From Candidatus Kapaibacterium sp. (GTDB taxonomy: Bacteria; Bacteroidota; Ignavibacteria; Kapaibacteriales; Kapaibacteriaceae): a DNA stretch of 42,659 bases. The position numbers were made by a program, and so were the translations under genes. Positions within the stretch are counted from its first letter, which is position 1. Each line of letters starts with the position of its first letter. The stretch spans positions 1-42,659 of the forward strand of contig VERF01000016.1 in NCBI GenBank assembly GCA_018882895.1. The letters run 5' to 3'. This document shows, piece after piece, positions 12,653-36,576 of this stretch. Under the pieces are notes generated by a model. It saw nothing but the letters and a program-made list of their open reading frames with translations, was not told the DNA's origin and did not search any database.

Positions 12653-13213
12653 ATGGCACTACACAAACAGATCCTATCGGCACTTGCCCTCGGCATGCTC
12701 GTTTGTCTTTGCTCTATGCGAGCGCAACCGATCATGCGATCGCATGTACTCGGCTCAGGCGGTGCCGTCTTTGCCGGAAACGTCACAGATACGATTCGCC
12801 TCTCAGGAACCGTCGGCCAGACCTTGGCAACGACGCCCGAACCATCGGCATCACAGAGTTTGTGGGAAGGCTTTTGGGTGCCGTGGCGATTTGAAATGAC
12901 TTCAATCGAGGTGTCTGCAGCGGAAGGCGACCGACTCGAAGTCTTCCCGAATCCCTTTACATCGCGCACCACCATTCGACTTCCGAGGAGATTTCTCGGT
13001 GAAGTCAGCATCGTCCTATTCAACCTCGCAGGGGAGAGAGTGCGAACACTCACGGTGGAAGCCGGCGGTACTGATCGCACCGAGGTTCCAATTGATGCAT
13101 ACGATGATCTGGGTGATGGGCTGCCGACGGGTGTCTACATCCTTGAGGTCAGCGGCTCGATGTCTGTTGGCACAGCACTGCGTCTTCATGGCATGATCCA
13201 TCTCGTTCAATAG
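12653..13213 (+). CDS. Small exported protein with T9SS C-terminal sorting tail (copy 1)
   Basis: 186 aa. A signal peptide (about 1-25, ending SMRAQ) is followed by a domain of about 60 residues with the pattern LGSGG...GTVGQT...WEGFWVPW. The C-terminal 90 residues look like a type A T9SS sorting domain: FPNPF at 98-102, then TTIRLPRR, LFNLAGERVRTL and GVYILEVSG. Such tails direct proteins through the outer membrane by type IX secretion. The SD AAGGG is well spaced. It lies 35 bp before a fibre-like gene, and the arrangement recurs at 15623. The function of the short N-terminal domain is unknown; it may anchor or help export the neighbouring fibre. Confidence 0.75.
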   Translation: MALHKQILSALALGMLVCLCSMRAQPIMRSHVLGSGGAVFAGNVTDTIRLSGTVGQTLATTPEPSASQSLWEGFWVPWRFEMTSIEVSAAEGDRLEVFPNPFTSRTTIRLPRRFLGEVSIVLFNLAGERVRTLTVEAGGTDRTEVPIDAYDDLGDGLPTGVYILEVSGSMSVGTALRLHGMIHLVQ

Positions 13214-15297: not shown

Positions 15298-15610
15298 TCG
15301 CCAGTCGCCGACACACAGCTCACGCCTCACAAGCCCCCTTACATCTACTCGGCCCGTTCGTCGGTAGAACGTTCGATCCAGATCAGGATCGGCAGGTCTA
15401 CCCTCTGGACGGGCCGTCTCTATTAGCGGCTGGAGATCGATGTTGAGATATTCAGTATTTATACATACATTGCTCCGTCAACAATCGGACAACTGAGTTT
15501 AAGTTATCCACACGCGCCCCCCAAAAAATTCACATCTTGTTGGCGGAAATGCCGTGAAAGGTTTGGAGAAAGGGGGCAGTTGTCATAGATTGTACGTGAT
15601 TCGAAAGGTT
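15298..15610 (+). other. 313-bp intergenic region between the two small-protein/fibre pairs
   Basis: It holds a nested inverted repeat (15350-15416), a GTATTTATAC palindrome near 15461, a TTATCCACA box (15504-15512), a poly-C/poly-A stretch, and a 19-nt copy of sequence from the end of the first transketolase gene (15539-15557). I see no gene or clear consensus promoter. It probably ends one transcript and starts another. Confidence 0.5.
15350..15416 (+). terminator. Large nested hairpin after the collar-fibre gene (candidate terminator or regulatory structure)
   Basis: The outer stem CGGCCCGT (15350-15357) pairs perfectly with ACGGGCCG (15409-15416). Inside, GGTAGA pairs with TCTACC, and GATCC with GGATC. 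An alternative inner pairing CGTTC/GAACG (15355-15371) excludes the outer stem. No T-run follows, so rho-independent termination is uncertain. Confidence 0.45.
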
Positions 15611-15622
15611 ATGGAGCAACGA

Positions 15623-16174
15623 ATGCGGCTTTTTTGTACGCTGTTGCTAGGGGGGCTAATTGTGTTCGTCCACCCGGCAACCTCACAACCTCGACTGACT
15701 TCCTCCGTGATTGGATCCGGAGCGTCACTTCTATCTAAGTCCCCCAATGGGTCTGGAATTTCCAGCACCATTGGCCAGGTTGTGATTTCGGCGCAAGTGC
15801 GCTCGGACAGCACAGCTCTGTATCAGGGCTTCTGGGTTCCGTATCTCTACGGAACTGTAGGTGTTGATGACCGCGAAGAGCAAACTGTTGCAGAGTTCGG
15901 CAACTACCCGAACCCGTTCACTACACACACGACGATCAGGTTTGCAACCCCCGTTGAGGGGCGTCTCACAATTAGGGTCTACAATCTGTTGGGGTCGCTA
16001 GTGCGAACCGTCACGGCCGAAGTGTCGATGGCTGGTTCGCAGGACGTGATGCTGCAGGCTGTTGACGATTACGGGGTGCCGATGCCGGCAGGAACGTACG
16101 TATATGAAGTCGAGGGGACCACGGTCTCCGGCGTACCGTTCCGCAAGTCCCAGACCCTTACCATCATTCGATAA
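15623..16174 (+). CDS. Small exported protein with T9SS C-terminal sorting tail (copy 2)
   Basis: About 183 aa, a paralogue of the protein at 12653. Signal peptide ends near ATSQ (residue 21). The N-terminal domain repeats the pattern VIGSGAS...STIGQV...YQGFWVPY. YPNPF at 95-99 begins the T9SS tail, followed by TTIRFATP, VYNLLGSLVRTV and GTYVYEVEG. The ATG at 15623 has GGAG six nt upstream; ATG 15611 and GTG 15554 are also in frame but less well supported. Its stop codon overlaps the start of the giant fibre gene by 1 nt (TAATG), so the two are probably translated in sequence. This tight link is the best hint that the small protein works with the fibre. Confidence 0.75.
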   Translation: MRLFCTLLLGGLIVFVHPATSQPRLTSSVIGSGASLLSKSPNGSGISSTIGQVVISAQVRSDSTALYQGFWVPYLYGTVGVDDREEQTVAEFGNYPNPFTTHTTIRFATPVEGRLTIRVYNLLGSLVRTVTAEVSMAGSQDVMLQAVDDYGVPMPAGTYVYEVEGTTVSGVPFRKSQTLTIIR

Positions 16175-19100
16175 TGAACACTTCTATGGTCAGAACCATG
16201 AACCGTTTCCTTCGCCCTTGCCTTGCCCTTCTGTTAGTTGTGGGCGTGATGGCTACCGCTGTCACGGCGACTTATGCGCAGATCGAGCGTCAGATAAGCT
16301 ATCAGGGCTTGTTGACGCTGCCCAATGGGTTGCCGCTTGATGACGGCCAATACGACCTCGTCATGCGATTGTATGATGCGCCGGTGGGTGGGAATCTCCT
16401 CTGGGAGGAGACGCAACAGACCATCCTGACGAAGGGGCTGTTCAACGTCTACCTTGGATCGGTCGTCCCGCTCAATGGCGTCGACTTCTTCAATACGCTG
16501 GTCTACCTCGAGACGGCGCTGGCTGGCCAGCCGCCGTTCCCGCGTACGCGTCTGGCCGTCGTGCCGTACGCAATCCGCGCAGAGCGCGCAGGTATAGCCG
16601 ACAGTGTCAGCATCAATGCAGGCGGATTTGTTCGCTCGCTGAATGACGCCGAGGGTAAGGTTGTGATTGCCGGACGTAACGGTATTGCTGTTACTCGCAA
16701 CGGTGATACGATCAGCATTGAGTCGACGATCACGCTGATGGGCATTCAGAACCTATCAAGCCCGCAGTCAACAATCGACATTGGTAATCCAAGCGGTCCG
16801 AACACCACTGTTGACATCCGTGACGGAGCTATCACAGCGATCAAGATCGCCGACAGCACCATTACGACGAACAAGCTTGTTGACAGTGTGATCACGAACA
16901 TCAAGATCGCCGACGGAGCTGTCACCATTGAAAAGATCGCTCCCGGTGTCATCCCAACATCGCTGCCACCGCGCGGCCCAGCCGGTGGCGACCTCACTGG
17001 CACCTATCCGAACCCGACGATCGCTCTTGGTGCTGTGACAGGGCCAAAGATTGCCGACGGTTCGATCTCGACATTGAAGATCGTCGACGGTGCGGTCACA
17101 ACGACTAAGATCCTTGACAACTCCATCACGACGCCGAAGATCGTTGATGGTGCGGTTTCAACGCCTAAGCTCTCTTCCACAGGTGTCTCGGCTGGTACAT
17201 ACGGTGATAACCTAAACATTCCGCGGATCACGGTCGACGATAAGGGTCGTATCACCTTGATCTCGGTTCAGCCGCTTACCAATTTCCCATTTGTCGTGCC
17301 TGCAGGGGGCGACCTAACGGGAACCTATCCCGACCCAATCATCCGCACAAACGCTGTCACATCATCCAAGATCCTCGACTTTAACGTAACAACGTCGAAG
17401 CTTGCCGACGGTGCAGTTACAACGCCGAAGATCGCCATCGGAGCAGTGCGTTCGGAGCAGGTTGCTGACGGATCTCTCACGGTGATCGACCTTGCTCCGG
17501 GAACAATTCCAACGACGCTTCCACCGTCGGGCCCGGCAACAGGCGATCTTTCGGGCTTTTACCCGGCACCGACCTTGTCGACCGCTGCCGGCGCTGGCTC
17601 GAGAATGGTCACGGCGCTGCGGAACAACTTCATTGCTGGAGACGCTAACGTCAATACAGCGAACAACATTGTCATGCTCAACGCGCTGGGTCAGTTCCCG
17701 GCAGCAAACGGCACGTTGATCACGAATCTAAACGTCAACAACGTTGGCTCTGGTGTTTTGGCTGTGCAATTCGGTGGTACGAATTCTTCATCTCCTCTGA
17801 ACAACAACCGGGTGATGGTTTCATCTGGTGGCCGCATCGTTGAGGCTGCGCAGCAGTCAGCCGGACAGTTGCTGATTGGTACCGGAGCAACCACTGCACC
17901 TGCCGTTGGCAACATTGTTGCAGGCACTGGAATGACGGTGACGTATTCTTCGCCGAACATTGTTATCGCATCTACCACACAGCCTGGTACGGCAGCAGAT
18001 CAGACCCTTCGTTGGGATGTTGTTGCTGGTGCATGGGTGCCATCGAGCAACGTTCTTTCCTCGGCTACCGGCAACCTGACTGTTAACGGCAACACGACAC
18101 TTGGAGACGCGGCGCTCGATCAGGTGCGCTTCAACGCTGCAACCGTAGGCATCCCGAACATACCGACGACAACGACCGCCGCCAATGTGCTCATCCGTAA
18201 TGCCACGACTGGAAACGTCGAAGTCTCGACGGCGAATTTCTCGACCTCGACCGTTCCCCTGGCTTCCAACACGGCAGTACGAACGAATGCTGCTGGCCAA
18301 CTTGAGTCCGTCGTTCTCACAAACGGACAACTGCTGATCGGCTCTACTGGTACTACACCTCAGGCAGCCACCGTCACTGGCACCACTAACCGTGTCATCG
18401 TCACCAATGGTCCTGGTTCAATAACACTCAGTCTGCCGCAGGACATTGCGACAACGAGTAACGTAAACTTCAATGCCGTTACCACGGCTAACAATGCTGT
18501 GATTGGCACCGGCCTGCAGGTAGGCGGGGCCGCAACAATTGGCGGCACACTATTGGTAACCGGCGGCACGACTCTCAATAGTTCACTCACGCAGTCGGGC
18601 GGACAAGTTGTCTTTGGCGGCAACGTGGATGCCAACAATGGACTGGATGTGGTCGGTCTCACTACGATGAACGGCGCGCTTACGCAGTCCGGAGGTCAAG
18701 TTACCTTCAGTGGAAATGTTGACGCTTTGGGTGGCCTTGATGTGGCTGGTCTTACGACTATGTCAGGTGCTGTGACGCAGACTATAGGCCAGGTCACTTT
18801 TGGTGGCAATGTTGATGCAAATGCGGGCCTCGATGTGACAGGCCTAACTACGCTTGCTGGCAGTGTTACTCAGTCCGGCGGTACGGTTACTGTTAATGGT
18901 GCAACAACCATCAACAATTTACTCTCGCAATCTGGTGGCCAGGTCACCTTTGGTGGTAACGTCGATGCAAACAATGGCCTTGATGTGCTGGGCGCAAGTC
19001 TCACCGTTGGTGGTGTGAACTTCACGGTCAATCCTGCGAATGGCAACACCTCGATGGCAGGAACACTAAATGCCAATGGCGCGGCAACACTCAATAGTAC

Positions 19101-22100
19101 CCTGGCTGTCACCGGCAGCACTACGTTGAGCGGCAATGTCGTGGCTGGTGATGGAACCGGCGATAACGTCGCCATCAATACGGCCGGCGGCGGCACTCTT
19201 TCGATGAATGGCCTGCCAAACGTCGCAGGTGCGGACGTTCTGATGATCAGCGGTGCGAATGCAGTTTCACGCTTCCCGATCACGGGGCTAATCGGTGCCG
19301 ACGAAGGTTTGACGTATAACGAAGCAGGCAGTGCTAGGGTCCGTCTCGGTTCAACCACCACGACGGCGTCGGCAATGACAGCCAACCGCTTTGTAAATCT
19401 CGGTAACAACGATCTGCGATTTACGACCAATGCAGGTAATTCAACGATCTTGACGCTTGATGGTGATGCGGTCAATTTCGGAGTGGTGATCAACGCTGGT
19501 GGTACGGGAGTCATAGATCATAACGGTGCTTCCCGCTTCACTGGACCAATAACCGCTACCGGAGCTGTTACCCAGTCAGGCGGACAAGTTGTGTTCGGTG
19601 GAAATGTTGATGCCAACAGTGGACTCGATGTTCTAGGAGCCAACCTCACGGTTGGAGGTTCCAACTTCACCGTTATTCCGGCCAGTGGTAATGTTTCCAC
19701 AGCAGGCTCGGTAACGGCCAACGGAGCAGCAATCTTCAATAGCACGATGACCGTTGCTGGTACTTCCACCATGAACGGAAACGTCGTGGCTGGTGACGGC
19801 AACGGCGATAACGTCACGATCAACACTGCCGGTGGTGGCGCACTAACGATGGTTGGACTGCCAGTAGCTGCGGGTGTCGATGTTCTGATGGCCAATGGTG
19901 CCAATATCATCACGCGGACACCAATCAACACGCTCATTAATGCCGATCAGGCATTGACATACAACGAGGGTGGCCTCGGATTTGTTCGACTCGGATCGCC
20001 GAACAACCTCGGTTCGACGATGACGATGAATCGCTTCGTCAATCTTGGAAACTTCGACCTCCGCTTCACGACCAACGGAGGCGCTGTAAACCTCGTGACA
20101 ATGGATGGAGACGCTGTCAACTACGGTGTGGCCATCAATGCGGCCGGTACGGGTTCGATAGCGTTGACCGGTTCGACAATCCATGTTGGTCCATCGACAT
20201 TTACGGGCACGATCACCCAAGGTAGCGGTCAGGTGATCTTCAACGGCAATGTGGACGCAAACGCTGGTCTTGATGTCACGGGGCTTACGACATTGACGGG
20301 TAACGCCACGCAATCCGGCGGAACCGTTACACTGGGCGGCGCAACTACGATCAACAACACGCTGACGCAAACCGGTGCAACTAATCAGGTGTCTTTTGCC
20401 GGCAACGTCGACGCAAACAATGGTCTTGATGTTACCGGCCTCACTACGCTGACCGGTGCAATCACGCAAGGCAGTGGTCAGGTGACATTCAACGGAAACG
20501 TCGATGCGTTTTCTGGACTTGATGTGACGGGTCAGGATCTTACTGTAGGCGGAGCCAATTTCACGGTCAGCCCCCTTTCAGGAAACACAAGCGTCAACGG
20601 TACGCTCACAGTCAATGGCGCCGCAACTCTGAATGGCAATGTAACCATGGGTAATGGTACGAGTGACAACGTCGTCATAGATGTGTCAGGTGGTGCCGGT
20701 ACACTGCGGATGAATGGTCTTGTAGCAGGAGCCGGTACAGACCTGCTGATGATCAATGCGACGAACATCGTGTCGCGTACACCGCTTGCAAATCTCATCG
20801 ATGCTGATCAAGGTGTTACATACAATGAAGCAGGTAGTGCAAGGATGCGACTTGGTTCGACAACGAACGTAGGAGTTCCGTTCGTAACGAATCGGTTCAT
20901 CAACATTGGCAATAACGATCTCACGATCACCACAAATGCAGGTGCACAAAACCTGGTTCTTTTCGATGGTGATGCCACAAATGCGGGAGTGACGGTAACA
21001 CCGTCGGGTACGGGTAGGTTCGTTGTCAATGGTGGAGCCAACCTGAATGGCGCAGTTACAATGACCAATACGGTTACGCAGACGGGTACACTTCAGGTGA
21101 TTTTCGGCGGAAATGTCGATGCCAACAATGGTCTTGATGTGACGGGTCAGAATTTCACCGTGGGGGGCACTCGATTCACAGTAGCGCAAGCTTCAGGTAA
21201 TACGACTATTGGTGGTACAGTAGACGTTACCGGTGCCGCTCAACTTGGGAACACGCTTACGGTTGCTGGTAACTCTACACTGAATGGCAATGTCATTGCT
21301 GGTAACGGCAACGGCGATGACGTTACGATCAACGTCAGCGGAGCTGGTGGTGAGTTAGTGATTAACGGACTGCCGGTAGTTGCTGGCACGGAAGTGCTCA
21401 TGTCGAACGCAGCCAATGTGATCACAAAGACGCCTCTCGTGGCAATAATCGATGCTAATCAGGGTGTCACATACAACGAAGACGGCACCGGAAAGGTCCG
21501 TCTTGGTGGCACCACAAATGCCGTCAACCCATTTGCGGTTGACCGCTTTGTGAATCTCGGAAACTTCGATCTGATGTTTACAACGAGTGCCGGTGCAAAC
21601 AACATCCTTGCTCTCGATGGTGGCGCTCTCAATTACGGAGCGACCATTAATGCCGGTGGCACAGGGTCAATATCACTGAATGGACCTACCAACATCACGG
21701 GTACGACTTCAGTAACAGGCGCCACCACGATCACTGGGACGGTTACGCAGAATGGCGCAGGTCAGGTGACATTCACTGGAAACATCGATGCAAACAACGG
21801 GCTCGATGTTTCGGGTGCTTTCACAGTTGGTGGAAATTCGACGCTCACCGGAAATCTGAACCAGTCAGCAGGTACTGTAACACTTGGAGGTGCGACCACG
21901 ATTGGTGGCGCCACTAACATCAACAACACCCTGATCGTAAGCGGTGCGACCACGCTGTCATCTTCGCTTCGGGTGGATGGCAACACGACACTTGGTGATG
22001 CCGCAGCTGATAACATCACCGTGAACGCGGCAACAGTGACCATGGCAAATCTGCCAACAGCTACGATTGTGAACAAGTTCATCATGAGTGGTACGGGCGG

Positions 22101-25100
22101 GGCTCTGCAGATCCGTGAGATCAACAACATCGTCACCGGTACTGGAACGCCAAATCGTCTTACTCGGTGGGACGCTACGGGTGCCGGCATTCTGGACGCG
22201 AGTCTTTCTGATGACGGTGCTGGTGTATTGTCGCGTTCAGGTAATGTCTCAATCAACCCGGGTGCCGCATTCACACTCTCGACGAACGGTAACTTCTCGG
22301 TCACGGGAGCGACGACACTCACCGGTGCGGCGACAATGAACGGTACGGCGACGATGAACGGTGCGGTCAACATCGGTAATGGTGCGGATGCAGTTGCGGT
22401 GAACGTTACGGGTAGCCAGCTGACTCTTGCCGGTATCGGCACGGCTGTTGGCACAGACGTGCTCATGGCCAATGGTTCGAACGTCGTTACCCGCACACCT
22501 ATAACGACCCTCATCGGAGCCGATCAAGGTCTGTCATACAACGAGGCGGGATCTGCGCGCGTTCGTCTCGGTACAGATGTTCGCGGTCAGAATACCGTCT
22601 CGGGCAATCGGTTTATCGATATCGGTACGACGGCCAAGCTAATCTTTACTACCAACGCAGGAAACGCAGCCGATGACATGCTGACACTCTCAGGGGGCTC
22701 AGTGAACTATGGCCTTGCCCTTCGGTCCAAGGGAACGGGAGCAATCGCCATGAAGGCCGGCGCACTGAATGGAGTCGGTGACGTAACAACCGGAACCCTT
22801 CTGAACCTCACGCCGGCGTCAGGCGCACAGTTCAAGTACTTTGATCCTAATCAAGAGCTGGGCGTCATCCTTGAATCCGGCGCACGTGAAGTGATCATCA
22901 GTGCTGAAGATATCGCCGCAGGGGAAGTCAGTGAGATACGGGTCAAAGGTAGTATGGTAGAGATATCCGGACCGATCTACCAAGCCACGCCGGACCTTGT
23001 GCAGTTCTCTGGCGACGTCGAAATGGCTCGCAAGCTGGACGTAGTTGGCAACTTCGCCGTCAACGGTAACAGATTCATGGTTACCGCCAGCAACGGCAAT
23101 ACGGCCATTCAGGGCAACTTGGCGGTCAACGGAGCAGTAAATCTCGGCGACGGCGTAGGTGCTGATGCCGTCACCGTCAATGTGACAGGCAGTAACCTTA
23201 AGCTCGTAGGCATCGGGACTGTTCCAGGTGCCGATGTACTGATGATTAACGCGACGAATGATGTTTCACGGACTCCGATCACGAACCTCATCGGCGCCGA
23301 TGAAGGCCTCACATACAACGAAGCTGGTTCCGGCAAGGTTAGGTTGGGCGGCACGACCAACACAACGAACCCGCTCACGGGTAATCGTTTTGTAAACCTT
23401 GGTAACAATGATCTGACTTTCACCACAAACAACGGAACTCAGAATGTCATAGTTGTTGATGGGGGCGCAACAAATTCAGGCGTAGCTCTGAATGCCGCTG
23501 GAACCGGTTCGATCGCGTTGTCCGGTACCACAACTGTTGCCGGCAACTCGACATTCACCGGTGCTCTGACGCAAGGTGGCGGCACCGCTACTATCAATGG
23601 TGCGGCTACATTCACCAACAGCATCACGCAGACCGGAACGGGTGCTGTCAACCTTTCTGGTAGCGTTACATCAAATGGCAACCTTGCTGTGAATGGTGCG
23701 ACGACGATCGGTGACGCTGCAGGTGATGCCCTCGTTATCAATGCTGGCAACATAACGGCTAACAACATCCCGGTTGGAACTACGAGTACTTTCGTAACAC
23801 TCAGCGGTACGACGGTACAACAGAGGACGATCAACAACATAGTAACCGGTACAGGTACTCCGAGTCGTATGACGCGTTGGATCACCTCGAGTACAATTGG
23901 TGATGCATCGCTGGACGATAACGGTACAGGAACACTGAGCCGTGCCGTGGGCGACATCGCCATCAATCCAGCTGCAGGAGGCCTGCTGACTACGACGGGC
24001 GGTCTTACGGTATCAGGCGCCACATCACTCGGCTCTACGCTTTCGGTAACTGGTGCTACGACTCTTAATTCGACACTTGCGGTTACGGGCGCCTCGAATT
24101 TGAACGGCACCGTCACCCTGGGTAACGGCGATGCCGATGCCATAACCGTTAACTCTACGGGCGGCCTGTTTGTCAATACCGGCGCCGGTGCTGATCTGAC
24201 CATCACAGAGTCTGCAGTTAGTCGCGCTGGCAACATCGCGATAAACACCGGAGCTACAAACAGCATTACAACCGATGGCAGCTTGATTGTCGACGGTAAC
24301 GCTCAGGTGAAGGGCAACACCACACTGGGCGATGCCTCGACAGATCAGTTGACCGTACTAGGTACCACACTGATCAACACAGGAACGGCAACAGCTTCGA
24401 CGTCGATCGGAAATGCAACCGGAAATTTCACACTCGTCTCGTCAGGACTGAACATCACCTCAGCTGGCGTGATCAGCGATGCCAATAGTGCCGTTGAAGT
24501 AAATGATGATCTCACGGTGTCTGGTGCATCTTCACTACAAGGCTCTCTGCAGGTCACAGGTGCTAGTACACTCAACGGTTCCGTGACACTCGGTAACGGT
24601 GATGCCGATGCGATCACGGTGAACTCTTCTGGTGGAATGGTGATCAATACAGCCGCAGGTGCTGATCTGACGATCACCGAAAGTGCACTCACGCGCAATG
24701 GACAGATTGACATTAACCCAGGTGCGGCAAACAACGTTTCGACAAACGGAAGTCTGGTCGTTGACCGGAATGCTACGATTCGTGGCAACTCCAACATTGG
24801 TGATGCTGCAACAGATGTGATCAGTATCAACGGTCAAACATCGATCAATGGCACTCTTACCCAGTCAGCAGGTCAAGTGATTTTCGGCGGCAATGTCGAT
24901 GCTAACGCAGGGTTGGACGTTCTGGGTACTACGACCATGACAGGAATTGTCAACCAATCTTCGGGTCAGGTAACCTTCGGTGGCAACGTTGATGCCAATG
25001 CCGGGCTTGATGTCGTTGGCACGACTACAATGAACGGTGCTCTTTCCCAGTCAAATGGCCAGGTATTGTTCGGCGGAAATGTTGATGCTAATGCCGGACT

Positions 25101-28100
25101 TGATGTTGTCGGCACAACAACGATGAATGGCGCACTTAACCAGTCAACGGGTCAAGTGACATTCGGCGGTAATGTCGATGCTAACGGTGGGCTGGATGTC
25201 AATGGTGCATCAACATTCACGGGCTCGATGACACAGTCAGGGGGCTCTGTATCCCTCACGGTAAGTGGTGTAGGCAACTCTCTTGCAGTCAATGGTCTGC
25301 CGGCCGGTAGCGTTACCGGCGCAACGCCTGACGACGTCATGCTCATCACGACGGCAACAAATCAGGTCCGCCGCCGTTCGATCGCCGATCTTATTGGTGC
25401 TGAGCAGGGTGTGTCATACAATGAAACGACCACAGACGGCAAGCTTCGCCTAGGCGCCAATGCAATTAATAAGTCGCTGTTTGCGAGCGATCGTTTCATC
25501 AATCAACGTGACTTTGGATTGTCGTTTACCTACACGGACGGTGTTGCTCTTCCACGAACAATGCTTTTCATGGACAATGGCATTGTCAATATGGCTGGTA
25601 CGGTCACGATCAATGGCACCGCTGGGGTGGGTTCCACATCGATCGGCAACGCCTCGAATCTTACAACGCTGACTGGCAGTCAGATAAACCTCCGCGGAAT
25701 TGTTGATCACTCATTGGGAAGTGTCACATTCTCCACGGGGCTCGACAGATTCCTGGTGCAGACAAGTGGTTCCGGTTCGGGTCTAGGAACATCAATCGAA
25801 GTCAACTCTGCCACGGCAGGCATCCTAGCTGTTGCGGATGATGGCACAAACTTGGGAGAGTTGAATGTTGATCCGGGATCGATCGATCTTAACACTACCA
25901 CGGGCGTACGTATCAACTCCCTTAATGAAGGATTCACAAGCATAGGCAATACCACAAATGGCGGTGCGGTATCTATGCTGTCGAGCGGTTCGAATGATGT
26001 CACTGTCAACCCGGGTGGTGATCTCGTTCTAAAGAATATCGACACGGACGCAACACCGACTCAGATGGTAACACTCACAGGTCTGGGCCAAGTCCGTGTA
26101 ACAACTCTCAGTGGCACCGCAGATCAGGGTGTGATATACTCAAGCGGCAAGTATCTGCTTGGCGGTGCTAACAACACACAGGTGCCGTTTACGACGGACC
26201 GCTTCATCAATATCAACAACCGCAATCTCAACTTCACGACCACTGCCGGTACGATTCTAAACCTGAACGGATCCTCAATCACTGCAAATGCAAGCATGGT
26301 GCAATCAGGAGGTACGGTAGCGTTCTCACCAGGTGTCGGAAATCAGTTCCGAGTCACTGGTGCCACAAACATCAACATCGCGGGAACAGATGCGACGTCG
26401 ATCGGTAACACCGGCGCATTGCTGACCCTGCGCGGTTCGAGTGTGGACGTTACGGGGAATGTTTTGGCAAACAGCAATTTGACAGTCACTGGATCAACGA
26501 ATCTTAACGGGGCTGTGAATATTGGTAACGGCGACGCAGACCCTGTAGTGATTAACACCACAGGTGCGTTTTCGCTGGCATCGAACAATCTCAACATTTC
26601 AACTACTGGATCTATCACAGATATCGGTACTGACAACGCAGGAGCAGTATTCATTGATGATGCACTGCTCGTTAGCGGCGCGGCTGGTTTCAATGGCAAT
26701 GTTCGCGTCGGTTCGGCTGGTGCCACGTTCTTCACTGTTGATGCTACCCAGGGTAACGTTTCCACGGAGGCTAACCTTAATGTCAAGGGGAATGTCAAGC
26801 TAGGCGACGCACTAACCGACCTCATTGACGTAATCGGCGTTACTAACGTGACCGGTAACACCACCGTCAAGGGGGCGAACATTCTTCTCGAGACAACGGG
26901 CGCGTCCACAAGCACTGCCTTGACCATGAGTAACAGTGCGACATCCCTTGCTTGGAATGAGGGAACAACTAGCGAACGCGCAATCAGTATGGAAACCGGA
27001 GGCGTCACGCTTTCTTCAAGCACCGGGGCGATCTACACAGAAATCGCCATGACAGATGCAACTATCACTATAGATGGAAATACAACGCTTCCAAAGAACC
27101 TGACAGTCAACGGCAATGTCGCCCTCGGCAATAGTGCGTCGCTTGACGCAGTCACGGTTACGGCGGCGACCACCATCACGGGTGCTGTTGGAATCAATTC
27201 CACCGGCGGTGCCACAACCACCATCGGCAACGCAACCACCGGCGGAGCAGTGTCGATCTCTTCAGCAGGGGTAAATAACATTACTGTGAATCCGGGAGGA
27301 GACCTTGTTCTTCAGAACATAGACGCCGATGCAGTTCCTACCCAGATGCTGACATTGACCGCCACGGGAGCAGTCCGCAGGACGACTCTTTCTGGAACTG
27401 CTGATCAGGGTGTCATCTACACCAACGGCCAGTATCTGCTTGGAGGTGCTACATCAACGCAGGTGCCGTTTACCTCCAACCGTTTCATTAACATCGGCAG
27501 TCAAAATCTGAACTTCACGACATCTGCTGGTACGCTCGTGAACTTGACGGGTTCAACTGTTACTGTTTCGGGTAATGTCACGCAGACATCTGGCGACGTG
27601 AGTTTTACTCCGGGTGCGGGCAAGACGTTCTCCGTGACGGGTGTAACAACAATTGCCGGAGTAACGAACATTAATTCCGGAGCCGCCGCCACAACAAACA
27701 TTGGTACCGGCGCGGGTACGAATACAATCCTTGGTGCGACATTCATCAACGCCACCGGTACAGCAGCGACATCCATTGGTAACACAGGCCTTCTGACGTT
27801 GAAGGGGGCATCGGTTGACGTTACAGGGAATATTCAAGCGAATAATGGTCTTACAGTGACAGGTGCATCAATCCTCAATGGCGCTGCAACAATCGGCAAC
27901 GGGGATGCAGATGCAGTTGCCATTAATACCACGGGAACTTTCACACTAAACTCATCGAACATCAAGATCGACGCAAACGGAAACATCTCGGACAATGTCG
28001 GATCTGTTGAAATTGTGGACGATCTGCGTGTTGCAGGTGCGACCACACTTGAAGGTTCTATTACCCAAACTGGCGGCGCGCAAGTTTCCTTCTCGGGAAA

Positions 28101-30333
28101 TGTTGACGCTACTAGCGGACTGGATGTGACGAATGCGGACCTTACGGTAGGGGGCGCGTCAAAGTTTCAGGTTACAACGTCCGGAAACGTTACTGCAGAT
28201 GGCAACCTCGTGGTAAACTCCAACGCGACGCTGGGAAGTCAGAACACTGGGGCTGGTGACAACGTGACTGTAGACGTTCGTGGTACTACAACCAACGGCG
28301 CACTCACTGTCCGAGGCCTCAATGCCACGGGAACGTTTGCTGATGATGTTCTCCTGATCACCGGTGCGGACATTGTTCGCCGCCGCTCACTTAGCGACCT
28401 TATCGGTGCGGAATATGGCATCACTTACAACGAGGCTGGCAACGGCAAAATGCGCCTCGGTTCAGCCACGAGTGGCTCGACAGCTGCTGAGAACGTTCTT
28501 GGTGCAGATCGATTCATCAACCAAGGAGCCAGTGGCCTGTCATTTACTTGGTTGGATGTTGCAACGACAAGGACGATGCTCAACGCCAAGAATGGCGTTG
28601 TGACAATTACCGGAACATCGAACGTTGATGGTGTCGCCAACTTGAACGGCAATACCAACATCGGTAACGGTGACGGTGATGTGATCACGATCAACACTGC
28701 TGCGGGAACGAACCTTACGCTTGCTGAGACAGGGCTGACACGCACTGGCTCGGACATCGCAATCAACACGGGAGCCGGCAACAAGGTGACCACTAACGGA
28801 AGCTTGGAAGTCGCGGTGAACGCTACGGTGACAGGCAACGCTACAGTTAATGGCACGACAACTCTGAATGGCACATCTGCTCTGAATGGCAACACGGCTA
28901 TCGGAAATGGAGATGGCGATGTGATCACCGTCAACACGGCCGCCGGAACGGACCTGACGCTTGCAGAGACGGGTCTGACACGTACTGGCTCGGACATCGC
29001 CATCAACACGGGAGCCGGCAACAAGGTGACCACAAACGGAAGCTTGGAAGTCGCGGTGAACGCTACGGTGACAGGCAACGCCACAGTTAGTGGATCGACG
29101 AACCTAGGAGACAATGCATCAACAGATAATGTGATCATCACGGCAGCAACATCGATCACCGGAGCAACCACGATAACAGGCACCACGTCGATTAATGCGA
29201 CCGGAACGGGTACGTCATCAGTAGGAAATTCCACGAACGGTGGTGCGGTTACGATCGCGTCGAGTGGAGCCAACAACATCACCTTGAATCCGGGTGGAGA
29301 TCTGGTCTTGCAGAATATTGATCCAGATGCAGTTCCAACCCAGATGATGACGCTCACTTCAGCTGGCGAGGTTCGTAAGACTACGCTTTCGGGCACTGCT
29401 GATCAGGGTGTTAGTTACACCTCAGGAAAGTACCAGCTCGGTTCTTCAACGAATACTGGTGTGCCCCTTACCCAGAATCGTTTTGTCAATGCTTCGGATT
29501 TCACGCTGGACTTCACATTTAACGATGCCGGAACACCACGTTCGATGTTCCGTCTCAACGATGGAGAAGTTGTGGTAACGTCGCCCGCGAATTTCCGCGT
29601 CGTTGGACCGACTTTCATTGCAGGGAACACCCAGATCAATACCGCTGGGGGCGATGGGTCGACCTCAATCGGAAATGCCTCCGGCGCATTCACTTTGACA
29701 TCGAACAATCTCAACATTAGCGCAGTCGGTCTGATCAGCGATGCCGCCGGCGATGTCGAAATCAACGACAACATGAATGTCTCTGGAGCAACGGCACTTA
29801 ACGGAGCAGCCAACATCGGCAATGGTGACGCAGATGCAGTGGCTATCAATACGACTGGTAACTTCTCGATCGCATCGTCGCAGCTGAATGTGTCGACGGC
29901 CGGTACAATCAGGGATGCTGGTTCTGACAATGGCGGCGCCGTCTTCGTAGATGATGCTTTGCTTGTAGCAAACGCTACCACGATCAATGGCCCGACGACC
30001 ATCAACAATAACCTGACTGTCACCGGACAAGTCAAGGGAGCTGGAGTTGAGCGCCTTAACTCAGCTGCTGCGTCGAACAAGTATGCTGAGCGGGTCCGCA
30101 TTAGCGGCAATGCCGACTTCAAATACACGATCACCAATTCACAAGTTGCTGCAAACTCTGTGGTGATCATCACGTTGGAAGATTATACTGGTCCCGGCAT
30201 CCTTTCATACCAGATCAAACGGCCGAAGGACGGTGGGGGTAACGTCATCCCAGGTTCTGTTGACATTTATTTCTCGCAGCCGATCCTGACTGGTGAGTCG
30301 GTTGTCGTGAACGTTATGGTCATCAACGAATGA
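16174..30333 (+). CDS. Giant exported repeat fibre protein (4,719 aa), tail-fibre-like
   Basis: One uninterrupted frame of 14.2 kb. Signal peptide 1-36 (TYAQ). Residues 40-190 are the SYQGLL domain, homologous to that of the 682-aa fibre; 205-470 carry KIxDG repeats and GPAGGDLTGTYPNP segments. From about 630 to 4620 it is a mosaic of beta-rich repeats: a 31-aa unit (GQVxFGGNVDANxGLDVxG), short LxVxGxTTLxG strands, and roughly eleven larger modules marked by LIGADxGLTYNEAG and RFVNLGNNDLTFTTN or by TLSGTADQGV. The last 95 residues are non-repetitive, beta-rich and end VVVNVMVINE. It is rich in Gly, Asn, Thr, Ser and Val and poor in Cys. There is no YPNPF tail and no membrane anchor beyond the signal peptide. 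The sequence resembles phage tail-fibre shafts. It is probably a very long extracellular fibre, likely trimeric. Confidence 0.85.
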   Translation: MNTSMVRTMNRFLRPCLALLLVVGVMATAVTATYAQIERQISYQGLLTLPNGLPLDDGQYDLVMRLYDAPVGGNLLWEETQQTILTKGLFNVYLGSVVPLNGVDFFNTLVYLETALAGQPPFPRTRLAVVPYAIRAERAGIADSVSINAGGFVRSLNDAEGKVVIAGRNGIAVTRNGDTISIESTITLMGIQNLSSPQSTIDIGNPSGPNTTVDIRDGAITAIKIADSTITTNKLVDSVITNIKIADGAVTIEKIAPGVIPTSLPPRGPAGGDLTGTYPNPTIALGAVTGPKIADGSISTLKIVDGAVTTTKILDNSITTPKIVDGAVSTPKLSSTGVSAGTYGDNLNIPRITVDDKGRITLISVQPLTNFPFVVPAGGDLTGTYPDPIIRTNAVTSSKILDFNVTTSKLADGAVTTPKIAIGAVRSEQVADGSLTVIDLAPGTIPTTLPPSGPATGDLSGFYPAPTLSTAAGAGSRMVTALRNNFIAGDANVNTANNIVMLNALGQFPAANGTLITNLNVNNVGSGVLAVQFGGTNSSSPLNNNRVMVSSGGRIVEAAQQSAGQLLIGTGATTAPAVGNIVAGTGMTVTYSSPNIVIASTTQPGTAADQTLRWDVVAGAWVPSSNVLSSATGNLTVNGNTTLGDAALDQVRFNAATVGIPNIPTTTTAANVLIRNATTGNVEVSTANFSTSTVPLASNTAVRTNAAGQLESVVLTNGQLLIGSTGTTPQAATVTGTTNRVIVTNGPGSITLSLPQDIATTSNVNFNAVTTANNAVIGTGLQVGGAATIGGTLLVTGGTTLNSSLTQSGGQVVFGGNVDANNGLDVVGLTTMNGALTQSGGQVTFSGNVDALGGLDVAGLTTMSGAVTQTIGQVTFGGNVDANAGLDVTGLTTLAGSVTQSGGTVTVNGATTINNLLSQSGGQVTFGGNVDANNGLDVLGASLTVGGVNFTVNPANGNTSMAGTLNANGAATLNSTLAVTGSTTLSGNVVAGDGTGDNVAINTAGGGTLSMNGLPNVAGADVLMISGANAVSRFPITGLIGADEGLTYNEAGSARVRLGSTTTTASAMTANRFVNLGNNDLRFTTNAGNSTILTLDGDAVNFGVVINAGGTGVIDHNGASRFTGPITATGAVTQSGGQVVFGGNVDANSGLDVLGANLTVGGSNFTVIPASGNVSTAGSVTANGAAIFNSTMTVAGTSTMNGNVVAGDGNGDNVTINTAGGGALTMVGLPVAAGVDVLMANGANIITRTPINTLINADQALTYNEGGLGFVRLGSPNNLGSTMTMNRFVNLGNFDLRFTTNGGAVNLVTMDGDAVNYGVAINAAGTGSIALTGSTIHVGPSTFTGTITQGSGQVIFNGNVDANAGLDVTGLTTLTGNATQSGGTVTLGGATTINNTLTQTGATNQVSFAGNVDANNGLDVTGLTTLTGAITQGSGQVTFNGNVDAFSGLDVTGQDLTVGGANFTVSPLSGNTSVNGTLTVNGAATLNGNVTMGNGTSDNVVIDVSGGAGTLRMNGLVAGAGTDLLMINATNIVSRTPLANLIDADQGVTYNEAGSARMRLGSTTNVGVPFVTNRFINIGNNDLTITTNAGAQNLVLFDGDATNAGVTVTPSGTGRFVVNGGANLNGAVTMTNTVTQTGTLQVIFGGNVDANNGLDVTGQNFTVGGTRFTVAQASGNTTIGGTVDVTGAAQLGNTLTVAGNSTLNGNVIAGNGNGDDVTINVSGAGGELVINGLPVVAGTEVLMSNAANVITKTPLVAIIDANQGVTYNEDGTGKVRLGGTTNAVNPFAVDRFVNLGNFDLMFTTSAGANNILALDGGALNYGATINAGGTGSISLNGPTNITGTTSVTGATTITGTVTQNGAGQVTFTGNIDANNGLDVSGAFTVGGNSTLTGNLNQSAGTVTLGGATTIGGATNINNTLIVSGATTLSSSLRVDGNTTLGDAAADNITVNAATVTMANLPTATIVNKFIMSGTGGALQIREINNIVTGTGTPNRLTRWDATGAGILDASLSDDGAGVLSRSGNVSINPGAAFTLSTNGNFSVTGATTLTGAATMNGTATMNGAVNIGNGADAVAVNVTGSQLTLAGIGTAVGTDVLMANGSNVVTRTPITTLIGADQGLSYNEAGSARVRLGTDVRGQNTVSGNRFIDIGTTAKLIFTTNAGNAADDMLTLSGGSVNYGLALRSKGTGAIAMKAGALNGVGDVTTGTLLNLTPASGAQFKYFDPNQELGVILESGAREVIISAEDIAAGEVSEIRVKGSMVEISGPIYQATPDLVQFSGDVEMARKLDVVGNFAVNGNRFMVTASNGNTAIQGNLAVNGAVNLGDGVGADAVTVNVTGSNLKLVGIGTVPGADVLMINATNDVSRTPITNLIGADEGLTYNEAGSGKVRLGGTTNTTNPLTGNRFVNLGNNDLTFTTNNGTQNVIVVDGGATNSGVALNAAGTGSIALSGTTTVAGNSTFTGALTQGGGTATINGAATFTNSITQTGTGAVNLSGSVTSNGNLAVNGATTIGDAAGDALVINAGNITANNIPVGTTSTFVTLSGTTVQQRTINNIVTGTGTPSRMTRWITSSTIGDASLDDNGTGTLSRAVGDIAINPAAGGLLTTTGGLTVSGATSLGSTLSVTGATTLNSTLAVTGASNLNGTVTLGNGDADAITVNSTGGLFVNTGAGADLTITESAVSRAGNIAINTGATNSITTDGSLIVDGNAQVKGNTTLGDASTDQLTVLGTTLINTGTATASTSIGNATGNFTLVSSGLNITSAGVISDANSAVEVNDDLTVSGASSLQGSLQVTGASTLNGSVTLGNGDADAITVNSSGGMVINTAAGADLTITESALTRNGQIDINPGAANNVSTNGSLVVDRNATIRGNSNIGDAATDVISINGQTSINGTLTQSAGQVIFGGNVDANAGLDVLGTTTMTGIVNQSSGQVTFGGNVDANAGLDVVGTTTMNGALSQSNGQVLFGGNVDANAGLDVVGTTTMNGALNQSTGQVTFGGNVDANGGLDVNGASTFTGSMTQSGGSVSLTVSGVGNSLAVNGLPAGSVTGATPDDVMLITTATNQVRRRSIADLIGAEQGVSYNETTTDGKLRLGANAINKSLFASDRFINQRDFGLSFTYTDGVALPRTMLFMDNGIVNMAGTVTINGTAGVGSTSIGNASNLTTLTGSQINLRGIVDHSLGSVTFSTGLDRFLVQTSGSGSGLGTSIEVNSATAGILAVADDGTNLGELNVDPGSIDLNTTTGVRINSLNEGFTSIGNTTNGGAVSMLSSGSNDVTVNPGGDLVLKNIDTDATPTQMVTLTGLGQVRVTTLSGTADQGVIYSSGKYLLGGANNTQVPFTTDRFININNRNLNFTTTAGTILNLNGSSITANASMVQSGGTVAFSPGVGNQFRVTGATNINIAGTDATSIGNTGALLTLRGSSVDVTGNVLANSNLTVTGSTNLNGAVNIGNGDADPVVINTTGAFSLASNNLNISTTGSITDIGTDNAGAVFIDDALLVSGAAGFNGNVRVGSAGATFFTVDATQGNVSTEANLNVKGNVKLGDALTDLIDVIGVTNVTGNTTVKGANILLETTGASTSTALTMSNSATSLAWNEGTTSERAISMETGGVTLSSSTGAIYTEIAMTDATITIDGNTTLPKNLTVNGNVALGNSASLDAVTVTAATTITGAVGINSTGGATTTIGNATTGGAVSISSAGVNNITVNPGGDLVLQNIDADAVPTQMLTLTATGAVRRTTLSGTADQGVIYTNGQYLLGGATSTQVPFTSNRFINIGSQNLNFTTSAGTLVNLTGSTVTVSGNVTQTSGDVSFTPGAGKTFSVTGVTTIAGVTNINSGAAATTNIGTGAGTNTILGATFINATGTAATSIGNTGLLTLKGASVDVTGNIQANNGLTVTGASILNGAATIGNGDADAVAINTTGTFTLNSSNIKIDANGNISDNVGSVEIVDDLRVAGATTLEGSITQTGGAQVSFSGNVDATSGLDVTNADLTVGGASKFQVTTSGNVTADGNLVVNSNATLGSQNTGAGDNVTVDVRGTTTNGALTVRGLNATGTFADDVLLITGADIVRRRSLSDLIGAEYGITYNEAGNGKMRLGSATSGSTAAENVLGADRFINQGASGLSFTWLDVATTRTMLNAKNGVVTITGTSNVDGVANLNGNTNIGNGDGDVITINTAAGTNLTLAETGLTRTGSDIAINTGAGNKVTTNGSLEVAVNATVTGNATVNGTTTLNGTSALNGNTAIGNGDGDVITVNTAAGTDLTLAETGLTRTGSDIAINTGAGNKVTTNGSLEVAVNATVTGNATVSGSTNLGDNASTDNVIITAATSITGATTITGTTSINATGTGTSSVGNSTNGGAVTIASSGANNITLNPGGDLVLQNIDPDAVPTQMMTLTSAGEVRKTTLSGTADQGVSYTSGKYQLGSSTNTGVPLTQNRFVNASDFTLDFTFNDAGTPRSMFRLNDGEVVVTSPANFRVVGPTFIAGNTQINTAGGDGSTSIGNASGAFTLTSNNLNISAVGLISDAAGDVEINDNMNVSGATALNGAANIGNGDADAVAINTTGNFSIASSQLNVSTAGTIRDAGSDNGGAVFVDDALLVANATTINGPTTINNNLTVTGQVKGAGVERLNSAAASNKYAERVRISGNADFKYTITNSQVAANSVVIITLEDYTGPGILSYQIKRPKDGGGNVIPGSVDIYFSQPILTGESVVVNVMVINE
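18582..18956 (+). repeat. 93-bp tandem repeats (31-aa unit), first array in the giant gene
   Basis: The segment encoding QSGGQVxFxGNVDAxxGLDV recurs at exact 93-bp steps (landmarks 18613, 18706, 18799), with a diverged copy following. Codons differ between copies while the protein pattern is kept. Confidence 0.8.
24850..25221 (+). repeat. 93-bp tandem repeats (31-aa unit) x4, second array in the giant gene
   Basis: Four copies with the same landmark TTCGG at 24883, 24976, 25069 and 25162, exactly 93 bp apart. The encoded unit is FGGNVDANAGLDVxGTTTM plus about 12 residues ending in the QSxGQV strand. Confidence 0.85.
28642..29095 (+). repeat. 240-bp direct repeat x2 (80-aa module) in the giant gene
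   Basis: Two adjacent copies offset by exactly 240 bp. The stretch encoding GSDIAINTGAGNKVTTNGSL and the following EVAVNATVTGNATV is almost identical in DNA (about 28745-28850 against 28985-29090), so this duplication is recent compared with other repeats in the gene. Confidence 0.85.
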
Positions 30334-30368
30334 TCATGATATTGATGAAGCTCCGGGGGGACACTGAC

Positions 30369-33300
30369 ATGAAGAAAATGAAAACACAAGGTCATACGAC
30401 TATGAAGCGATTCCTTCTTCCATTGGTGATTGCCGTATTAGCAGTTGCCGCGTTTACCGCGCATGGACAAGACATCGGCACTCGAAGTCTGATCCTACGA
30501 GGGCAAAATTTAAACGCGTCATATACTGGTACGCTTCAGGTCCCGCTACTGACAGCACCAAGGACTTATGGTTTGCCGGACGCAAGTGGATTTCTGCTCG
30601 TTTCGCCCAACGCGAACCTTGAGCCGAACAGGATCCTCGTGTCGAACTCCAACGGTCTTGTCGAGACGCTCAATATGAACGTTGGCAAGCTTGTGCTCGG
30701 AACGACTGGGGGCTCGTATGAGCAGTTGACACCAACAGGATTGGGCGGAATCGTTATTACCAATGCTGGAGGCGAACTGCGATTTGACCTGCCAACAGGA
30801 ACGTCCAATGCCCTGCTGAGGTATAACAACGCTACGGGTAAGTGGATGGCCTCAGCCGGTGCAACGCTTGATGGTGCCGGTAACTTTGGCACAACGGCCA
30901 ATCTTACAGTGGATGGAAATACCACACTTGGAAACAATGCTGCCTCAGACCAGGTCACCATTAATGGTAAGACTGTTGTTGACGTTACTGGGCAATCGAT
31001 GACAGTCGCGGGGCTGCCAAGCACGGGAACGTTCACGGATGATGTTCTGCTGATCGCCCCTTCACCTGATAACTCAGTCAAGCGCCGCTCGATGGCGGAT
31101 CTCATTGGTGCAGAGGGAGGCATCACATACAATGAAGCATCGAATGGTCGTATGCGGCTTGGCTCGTCAACGAACGTAGCCAACCCACTCTTGGGAGACC
31201 GTTTCCTTAACCTGAACAATAACGATCTCACGTTCACAACGAACGGCGGAAGCACCGCGCTGGCGACATTTGAAGCCGGGGCGGGTGGTACGAATTATGG
31301 AGTAGCACTCAACTCGGCTGGTTCAGGTTTCGTCTCAATTTCCGGACCAGTGCGGATCAATACGACGGGTTCCGCAGTTACTTCCATTGGCAGTGGCGCG
31401 GGGAATGTCAATGTCTCTGCCAATATCCTAACTATGACTGCTGGATCCGGCCCGACGAATCTGCAGTTCGTAATGAACTCTAATACCGCATCTATTCAGT
31501 CAACCGGCAGTGAACAAACAATCACACTCGATGACGGTGCAAATGAGATCCTTCTCGAGTCCAACGATTTCTCACTCACGGCTTACACGTCTATCTCGAT
31601 CAAGCCAACTCAGATTGATGTTATCGGCAATACGCTGATCAATGGAACGCTGAACGTTAAGAAGAGCACGACGATCGGTGATGGCAACGGCGATAATCTA
31701 TCGATAGACGTCTCCAATGCTGGTGTAAATGGGTCGATGACGATCAAGGGGCTCAACAACGGCTCACTTGCAGATGATGTTCTCATGATTGGCTCCTCTC
31801 CGGCAAACATTGTCAAACGCCGTAGTCTTGCAGATCTGATCCAAGCTGACAATGGAATAACATACAATGAGAGCTCTCTCGGCTACATTCGTCTAGGTTC
31901 ACCGAATGCTACATCGAACGCTCTTACAACCAATCGATACATAAATGTTGGGCCCCAGAATCTGTATTTCACAGCGAATTCAGGGACGGCTTTCCCGCTC
32001 ACGATCGAAGGAGCGCCAAATGCTACCAACTATGGGGTATCACTTGTTGCAGGAACATCGGCGTCAGCAGCGATTTCAATGCTCGGAAATGTGACTGTTG
32101 ACACGCGCAATTCCGGTACGTTCGAGGTGACGTCAGGCGACAACATCGGAACACGCCTGAATATGTCATCGGCTGGAGCTTTGTTGAGTTATGAAGACAA
32201 CGTGTCGAACGCTCAGATAAACTTTGCCCTCGACCCGGGTGAAACGATGCTTTCGCTGAACGCAACAGACGGTGGATTGAATGATGCGCTTCTGGAGGTA
32301 AAGGCTATAGGACTGTTTGCCAGGGGAACGACCAACATCAACATTGCAGGTAATAAGTCAACAACAATCGGTAGCGCCACAGCCGGCGCGTTTAGCGCTC
32401 GCTCGTCAAACACTGTAACTCTTACAGCCGGAACGACACTCACAGCCACGGGTGCCACGGGTGCCACGATGAACGCCACGGCAGGTGCGCTGACGCTGAA
32501 CGCCAATTCGGCCACGGGCAGCGTAGTGGTCAACGCCACGAACGCCGCCGGCGATGTGGACATCAATGCCGGCGATGCCATTACGGTTGACGGAAAGACC
32601 ATCGGACTGACAACGGCCGGCGGTGACGTGACGATCTCGGTCCCGGGTGCAACCTCGGGCAATGACCTGGTTCTGAACGGCATCGATCCAACAACGGCGG
32701 CGGTGAACATGCTGACGCTGGACGGATCGAACAACGTGCGCCGGAAGGCGCTGACGTCGATGGCCGATGAGGGTCTGCAGTATGACGCTACGGACGGCGA
32801 GTTCAAGCTGGGCAATTCCACCGACGGCAACACACCGATCACCTCGTCGCGCTTCGTACGCGTCGATGGTGGCGGAACGCTGACGTTCAACACGGGCACT
32901 CAGAAGATGCTGGAGTTGAATAACAACGGTGCTGTGAATATCAACACAACGGGTAACGGCGCAACATCGATCGGAAGTGCTGCCGCCGGAGCCATCGGTG
33001 TTCAGTCGCAGACCACGATCGGCCTTACAGCCGGAACGACACTCACAGCCACGGGCGCCACGGGTGCTACGATGAACGCCACGGCAGGTGCGCTGACGCT
33101 GAACGCCAACTCGGCCACTGGGGAGGTTGAAATCAATGCTACCAATGGTGCTGGTGTGATTGACATCAATGCCGGTGATGCTGTTACGGTAGACGGCAAG
33201 TCGATCGCCCTGACATCGACAAGTGGAAACACATCTATCAATACAACTGGCACATCATCGACGAATATTGGTAACACAGCAGGCTCAGTAACGATCACTG

Positions 33301-36377: not shown

Positions 36378-36392
36378 TAACTGATCTGTGAG

Positions 36393-36420
36393 ACTGCATA
36401 CGTATTTATACGTCCGCAGT
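36393..36420 (+). terminator. Hairpin after the 841-aa fibre gene
   Basis: ACTGC (36393-36397) and ACGTAT (36400-36405) pair with ATACGT (36408-36413) and GCAGT (36416-36420), leaving a tiny TT-centred loop and one 2x2 mismatch. It lies 16 bp after the stop codon and is followed by TATCTT rather than a full T-run. A terminator for the fibre operon is the likely reading. Confidence 0.55.
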
Positions 36421-36490
36421 TATCTTGCGCTACACGTGGCAGAAATGAGGAAAAGTTTGGGATTGACCGCGATGTTTTCCACACGAACCC

Positions 36491-36498
36491 TATATTTG
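36491..36498 (+). promoter_or_regulatory. Candidate TAnnTTTG promoter element for the SprB-like adhesin
   Basis: TATATTTG matches the Bacteroidota -7 consensus. A TTG at 36463-36465 lies 25 nt upstream, somewhat too far for the usual -33 element. A GC hairpin (CCCC/GGGG, 36507-36520) follows and would be at the start of the leader. The SD AAGGA lies 7 nt before the ATG. Confidence 0.35.
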
Positions 36499-36576
36499 CT
36501 GTCCGTCCCCTGGGGAGGGGCTTCCAAATCTTCGAACGAAAAAACTGATTTACTTCTTCAACGCAAGGATCGCGTC

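Follow-up and report, generated by a model that had tools for sequence, protein, structure and literature searches.

The 4,719-residue product of a single gene on this contig is probably a surface fibre, and its gene is coupled to that of a small predicted T9SS cargo, a coupling that recurs beside related fibre genes in other genomes. We slightly favour the reading in which the small cargo serves as escort, as surface socket, or as both, for a fibre without a sorting tail of its own; the linkage of the two genes is observed, while their contact and the export of the fibre are what we infer from it. The parts are of known kind, a MAT-like fibre and a type A cargo, and their near-constant coupling in the organism's own taxonomic family (f1) appears to be new. 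The window, i.e., the whole stretch of DNA analysed, comprises 42,659 bases and is identical with contig G000:C96. Its relevant features are collected in Table 1.

Table 1 Features of the fibre region in the window (positions in the window; aa, amino acids)
Feature	Position	Strand	Basis
Second partner, 186 aa, with GFW domain and sorting domain	12653-13213	+	TIGR04183, 25.1 bits (cut-off 23)
Second MAT-like-headed fibre, 682 aa, with tail-fibre-like C-terminus	13249-15297	+	Head 48% identical
Partner, 206 aa, predicted small T9SS cargo: signal peptide, GFW domain, type A sorting domain	15554-16174	+	TIGR04183
GFW domain of partner, VIGSGA...STIGQ...QGFWVP	15686-15841	+	Aligned in 29 partners (profile A2)
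Predicted T9SS type A C-terminal sorting domain (CTD) of partner	15905-16117	+	TIGR04183 and fold comparison
Giant fibre gene, 4,719 aa	16174-30333	+	Open reading frame, orthologue, dN/dS
Predicted signal peptide of giant	16174-16278	+	Cleavage ...TATYA/QIERQ, by eye
MAT-like head domain	16279-16698	+	NF053851, 25.5-25.9 bits, below cut-off 60
Neck, DGAVTxxKI and GDLTGTYPNPTI repeats, tail-fibre type	16774-17613	+	PHROGs, best E 2e-25
Shaft, Thr/Gly/Ala/Asn/Val-rich repeats	17974-29979	+	11 copies of NRFVN-type motif
C-terminal ~117 aa, kept in orthologue, without T9SS family match	29980-30330	+	Alignment and profile search
Downstream fibre, 1,167 aa, different head	30330-33833	+	Start overlaps stop of giant (ATGA)
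Downstream fibre, 841 aa, different head	33852-36377	+	Sequence
Start of large Ig-like-repeat protein, 2,090 aa seen, runs off contig	36388-42657	+	Sequence

The giant gene and its product

The giant gene is one open frame of 4,719 codons that runs from ATG to TGA with zero internal stops, in an assembly of 2.57 Mb (131 contigs, completeness estimated at 100%). An orthologue of 4,127 aa with the same small neighbour was found on CANHFG010000003.1, another MAG (the same as G005:C3). The two proteins are 70% identical across 3,650 aligned residues and are separated by indels of about 20-250 residues within the repeats, where whole repeat blocks have been gained or lost. In four out of five stretches, dN/dS (NG86) was 0.06-0.09, with dN of 0.10-0.26 across the five and dS of 1.55-2.48 in the four (the fifth gave no computable dS); with dS so close to saturation, these ratios are only rough. 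Relatives, too, have long open frames that carry this head, of up to 4,476 aa. The orthologue in genome G008 is broken by a run of N and counts neither way, and an 826-aa "short version" from that genome was dropped because its sequence stops at a stretch of N. The repeats of the giant gene are divergent: a search for DNA repeats of at least 60 nt (20-nt seed) returned one family of 217 nt in two copies at 87%, and the six tandem-repeat entries are headed by a 93-nt unit in 3.9 copies at 68% match. The orthologue and the indicated purifying selection appear to rule out an assembly chimera and, as far as sequence tells, the frame is real and not a product of chance, which confirms the single 4,719-residue gene of the earlier note.

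The composition of the predicted protein (Thr 15%, Gly 14%, Ala 10%, Asn 10%, Val 9%, one Cys) is of the beta-fibre type, and the Gln at position +1 of its predicted cleavage site fits the Bacteroidetes Q-rule (PMC5837995). Matches of the first 600 aa to PHROGs tail-fibre families are due to the neck repeats, and most shaft pieces had no PHROGs match at all. Besides numerous short units, the shaft contains a longer module marked by the NRFVN-type motif. No Pfam family matched the protein at E ≤ 0.1, no T9SS family matched either the whole protein (E ≤ 0.1) or its last 150 aa (E ≤ 1), and sequence searches of the PDB with head and tip returned nothing useful. Signal peptide, composition and neck matches thus agree with the earlier description of an exported, beta-rich, repetitive and tail-fibre-like protein, and the profile searches with its statement that there is no T9SS tail. 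The same note saw no evident anchor. This holds for the fibre protein itself but overlooked the T9SS-tagged gene that ends at the start of the fibre gene. Three candidate identities were rejected: a fibre with its own T9SS tail, on the profile searches just given; a lipoprotein, as the only Cys sits in the signal peptide and no lipobox was seen by eye; and a trimeric autotransporter, given the empty Pfam search. The fibre, presumably trimeric, could plausibly span hundreds of nanometres, roughly 240-330 nm if each residue adds about 0.05-0.07 nm as in T4 fibres.

Directly after the signal peptide, the giant carries a beta-rich domain of ~130 aa, which is a feature of MAT fibres. As the score of this head against NF053851 (Bdello_MAT_N; E ~1e-5, 7e-6) stays below the curated cut-off, we call it MAT-like and not a MAT member. 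Five of the nine heads in the genome match NF053851 at E ≤ 0.001, and the head family is present in 37 of the 40 genomes searched, our own included. Its closest named relatives are in CANHFG010000003.1, an Ignavibacteria MAG (89% over 200 aa), and in MAG UBA10438 (88%). The head model, built from five sequences (mean pLDDT 53.6, pTM 0.43), is beta-rich, with pLDDT of 68-84 at residues 11-50 and 71-90 and lower values elsewhere. With this model, Foldseek gave a best E of 0.049 and zero matches at E ≤ 0.001, and a VIA fold search gave a best Z of 7.0, which may reflect merely a common arrangement.

The small partner protein

The stop codon of the partner gene overlaps the start of the giant gene (TAATG). 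Its frame opens with GTG; judged by eye, translation more probably begins at an internal ATG, around 15611 or 15623, and a signal peptide follows. The central domain, termed GFW, has the consensus VxGSGG...LxGTxGQxxIG...QGFWxP in 29 aligned partners and is carried, as such or as a variant, by 47 of 51. It gave only chance-level matches against Pfam (best E 0.052), and this part of the structure model is unreliable (pLDDT ~30).

The tail of the partner scores 30.5 bits against TIGR04183 (cut-off 23), resembles the C-terminus of PorU (E 8.6e-10) and stays slightly under the cut-off of Pfam PF18962 (25.7 versus 27 bits). Its predicted fold compares with two CTDs from translocon-bound structures, those of NucA (8glk_D; Z 8.2, 74 residues, 2.4 Å) and RemA (8gl6_D; Z 8.0), as well as with PorU (Z 9.1) and PorZ (Z 8.1), a match that lacks specificity, since further Ig-like folds reach similar Z scores (up to 9.5 for 8jmw_A). 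Consistent with a type A cargo, the partner thus combines a signal peptide, a sorting domain above cut-off and a CTD-like fold in a genome that encodes SprA (908.9 bits, cut-off 200) and PorV (266.1 bits, cut-off 250) and has 92 TIGR04183 places, 79 of them above cut-off. It differs from such cargoes in that only ~70 aa (GFW domain and linker) would be left after removal of the tail (by eye), and in that its gene is wedded to a tail-less fibre. The partner is therefore predicted to be a sorting-domain cargo, which would be exported and attached by sortase. Among the eight partners in the genome, four exceed the TIGR04183 cut-off (30.5, 25.1, 25.2 and 28.6 bits), two score below it (17.5 and 14.1 bits) and two, on C93 and C79, have no match at E ≤ 0.1; hence, not every partner is proven to be a type A cargo.

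Just upstream of the giant's pair, the same arrangement is seen again, with the 186-aa partner preceding the 682-aa fibre. In genome G005 (L177:2563-3846), the counterparts of this sister pair look broken and fused, and the giant and its own partner look intact (both by eye).

Recurrence of the pairing

Pairing was scanned for 112 head genes, nine from our own genome and the others from 100 loci of relatives. The latter were chosen from 105 head places in a match list of 37 genomes, with the weakest rows excluded; one overlapping duplicate and four others were left out. Sorting domains were recognised with a CTD profile for which 20 CTDs of our own genome, none next to a head gene, served as the training set, and partners were limited to 400 aa. 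For missing flanks, 22 fibre genes and two short heads were set aside.

In f1, a small CTD gene adjoins 33 of the 38 fibre genes with full context, lying upstream of the fibre in 24 cases and downstream in nine. As a rough guide based on the CTD density of our own genome, a random gene would have any same-strand CTD neighbour in about 3% of cases. Short head-only proteins of 240-271 aa (G000:C78, L015:793-1560 and orthologues), which occur in 19 of the 23 f1 genomes, provide a natural control: none of the 17 has such a neighbour. The contrast between fibres and short heads yields a Fisher p of 4e-10, which is indicative only because the genomes are related. The five exceptions comprise three tandem-array members (G013, G017) whose array includes a partnered fibre, one G008 gene interrupted by N, and the fibre on C93, whose neighbour is homologous to the partner on C82 and has too low a tail score. 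A further member of the G013 array, missed by the overlap filter, lacks a partner directly next to it; counting it would give 33 of 39.

Outside f1, the rest of the order shows pairing at 18 out of 32 fibre genes, so the link is not universal. In G030 alone, eight of nine fully resolved fibres have no partner. One gene counted as partnerless (G039:C32) actually adjoins a GFW-CTD gene of 460 aa, above the size limit. Some partnerless fibres in this group seem S74-like or coiled-coil tipped (by eye).

The GFW domain was also searched for on its own. Profile A2, seeded with 29 of the 51 partners, finds 60 places in 26 of the 40 genomes, our own included; these places contain the seeds because the profile was built from partners that had all been selected beside heads. 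By coordinates, 46 of the 60 adjoin a head gene, a count based on 139 head places from which at least two rows are absent (another place on G037:C110 and a further piece of one G033 gene). In eight of the 14 non-adjacent places (L171-L176, L178, L179), the gene immediately upstream was judged by eye to be that of a fibre, with its head lost beyond the contig end or past a gap of N. Three more are at contig edges (L168-L170), one is the broken partner (L177), and two, which lack a sorting domain, are one gene away from a fibre. Fibre-length heads (>300 aa) occur without any GFW match in eight of the 40 genomes. The reverse was found once, in G003, where a truncated head stands beside the GFW gene. 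Across the phylum, 11 of 118 genomes match at E ≤ 1e-5. Two of these (G074 and G094) lie outside the order and took no part in profile building, and both have the pair, with the fibre first in G074 and the partner first in G094.

Finally, head and partner distances correlate with r = 0.79 over 47 pairs, compared with at most 0.16 in 2,000 full permutations and at most 0.66 in 2,000 permutations that swapped partners within genomes. This co-divergence could follow from linkage alone. The pairing of fibre and partner is not a matter of chance. A GFW-CTD gene beside a head gene offers a genomic handle on giant fibre operons that are broken in short-read assemblies.

Proposed mechanism and alternatives

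Export and attachment, unexplained in the earlier note, gain a candidate explanation from the pairing: a T9SS-tailed partner is coupled to the fibre, the same arrangement recurs, and four giants of one more distant relative (G033) carry a T9SS-like tail themselves. Both proteins would reach the periplasm via Sec, the type A domain would take the partner to the SprA/PorV translocon, and the GFW domain would bind the head of the fibre. In this proposal, the fibre would lack an outer-membrane sorting signal because its coupled partner supplies the signal in trans. The partner could either escort the fibre out of the cell or, attached first by sortase, form a surface socket for a fibre exported by another route. 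Based on the MAT literature, the N-terminal head would be cell-proximal and the C-terminus would form the outer tip. In its most specific form, a two-partner branch of the T9SS in which tail-less MAT-headed giants hitch-hike through SprA on a GFW-CTD protein that later becomes their surface-fixed socket, the idea is tentative and rather less probable than the general role. One partner may serve several fibres, as genes resembling the two fibres downstream of the giant, which have another type of head, follow the partnered ones on C35, C82 and C93 (by eye).

Linkage alone is what is observed, and the small protein might accordingly be a separate T9SS cargo, e.g., an adhesin or cap, that shares the operon and never touches the fibre. 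The adjoining OmpA-type or beta-barrel gene at two further loci (class D, see below) indicates that these operons carry several envelope proteins and fits such independence. We nevertheless consider it unlikely, as the GFW domain is tied to heads whichever of the two genes comes first, also in distant families, the resolved short head proteins have no partner, and the GFW domain diverges in step with the head.

The fibre might instead bear a T9SS signal of unrecognised type in its C-terminal ~117 residues, with the partner at most helping in anchoring. This is improbable. In its favour, the orthologue has kept this C-terminus conserved, and T9SS-dependent secretion of peptidases without an obvious CTD has been reported in F. 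columnare (PMC9936825). Moreover, four giants of relative G033 (3,092-4,476 aa) end in a CTD-like domain (17.9-34.1 bits) and have a small CTD neighbour as well. Against this stand the empty search of the last 150 aa for T9SS families and the CTD profile, which stays below 15 bits for all 30 f1 fibres with a complete, N-free end (17 of the 49 fibre genes run off the contig, and two of the 32 complete ones contain N). The G033 tails indicate that the head family can probably be T9SS cargo, with the tag probably on the fibre or on a partner. Against TIGR04183, one of five G033 fibre ends exceeds the cut-off (23.9 bits), three score below it and one has no match. G033 has 12 head matches, with loci L077, L083, L085, L110 and L172.

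Slightly more doubtful still is an outer-membrane route other than the T9SS, with the partner perhaps holding the fibre outside. To our knowledge, Bdellovibrio displays its MAT fibres on the surface without a T9SS, and several fibres in other families have no partner here. These MAT fibres do reach the cell surface, and their N-domain, which according to Caulton et al. 2024 (PMC10769870) has no PDB homologue, is proposed there to bind a surface element that is still unidentified. An alternative route was, however, not identified in our analysis.

A phage tail fibre of a prophage or its remnant, as the PHROGs matches might suggest, is very improbable given the signal peptide, the coupling to a T9SS cargo, the breadth of the head family, the housekeeping genes upstream (ribosomal proteins, tsf, pyrH, frr, queC; by eye), the housekeeping and envelope genes in place of phage structural genes around the giant in the window (by eye), and a viral-contig scan with the 682-aa sister fibre that found none; a prophage was rejected on these surroundings and on the empty scan.

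Relation to known systems

Cargoes of the T9SS as a rule carry a C-terminal export signal of their own, and a CTD on cargoes is described as required (PMC11285876). A GH9 enzyme without CTD that was found extracellularly was ascribed to vesicles (PMC6247017). The F. columnare peptidases, which appear to need the T9SS and have no obvious CTD, are a precedent for the T9SS dependence that our reading would give the fibre. They are enzymes of ~300-720 aa, and the portion of PMC9936825 available to us mentions no CTD-bearing partner and proposes no partner mechanism for them. Literature on T9SS piggyback, CTD-less cargo and giant proteins, for the most part in the form of listings, likewise did not yield a CTD-bearing partner for a CTD-less fibre.

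Among giant adhesins, SprB (6,497 aa; PMC9251779) is similar in needing a dedicated second protein, SprF, for its anchorage, as type B CTD proteins do with PorP-like anchors (PMC9143113). There, however, the adhesin has its own sorting domain and is held by an outer-membrane barrel, whereas here the partner carries that domain. Trimeric autotransporters (T5c) are comparable as long fibres, but the C-terminal YadA anchor barrel is absent from the giant, as judged from its lack of Pfam matches. One fibre of G033 (L172) has YadA-head-like GGG repeats (by eye).

A close likeness is with the MAT fibres of Bdellovibrio (PMC10769870), which have a signal peptide, a beta-rich N-domain of ~130 aa, a shaft and exchangeable C-terminal tips, and whose profile gives a weak but consistent match to heads of our genome. 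MAT fibres are typically ~1,000 aa long, compared with up to 4,719 aa here; our heads score under 60 bits, and our fibres are paired with a T9SS cargo. If our proposal is true, the GFW domain would supply a surface element of the sort that is still missing in work on MAT fibres. As the domain is small and recurs beside these fibres, two short constructs would be enough for a direct test both of export without an own CTD and of how the MAT N-domain is held (PMC10769870).

Further genes and loci

The class D loci (L013:13307-16280 and L009:12514-14250) comprise a long fibre, a GFW-CTD protein with an extra middle domain and then an outer-membrane protein with OmpA domain or beta-barrel, a possible third component. 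The loci on C82 and C93 (L011, L012), as well as those on C51 and C36 (L013, L014), look by eye as if entire fibre loci, flanking genes included, had been duplicated as paralogues.

Downstream of the giant, the C-terminus of the 1,167-aa fibre (33381-33830) scores above the cut-off for PF25692 (Phage_depo_C), a beta-sandwich of phage depolymerases. The Ig-like-repeat gene at the end of the window contains six tandem copies of a 291-nt unit (82% match), and a similar protein on C51 ends with a weak sorting-domain match of 20.7 bits (cut-off 23).
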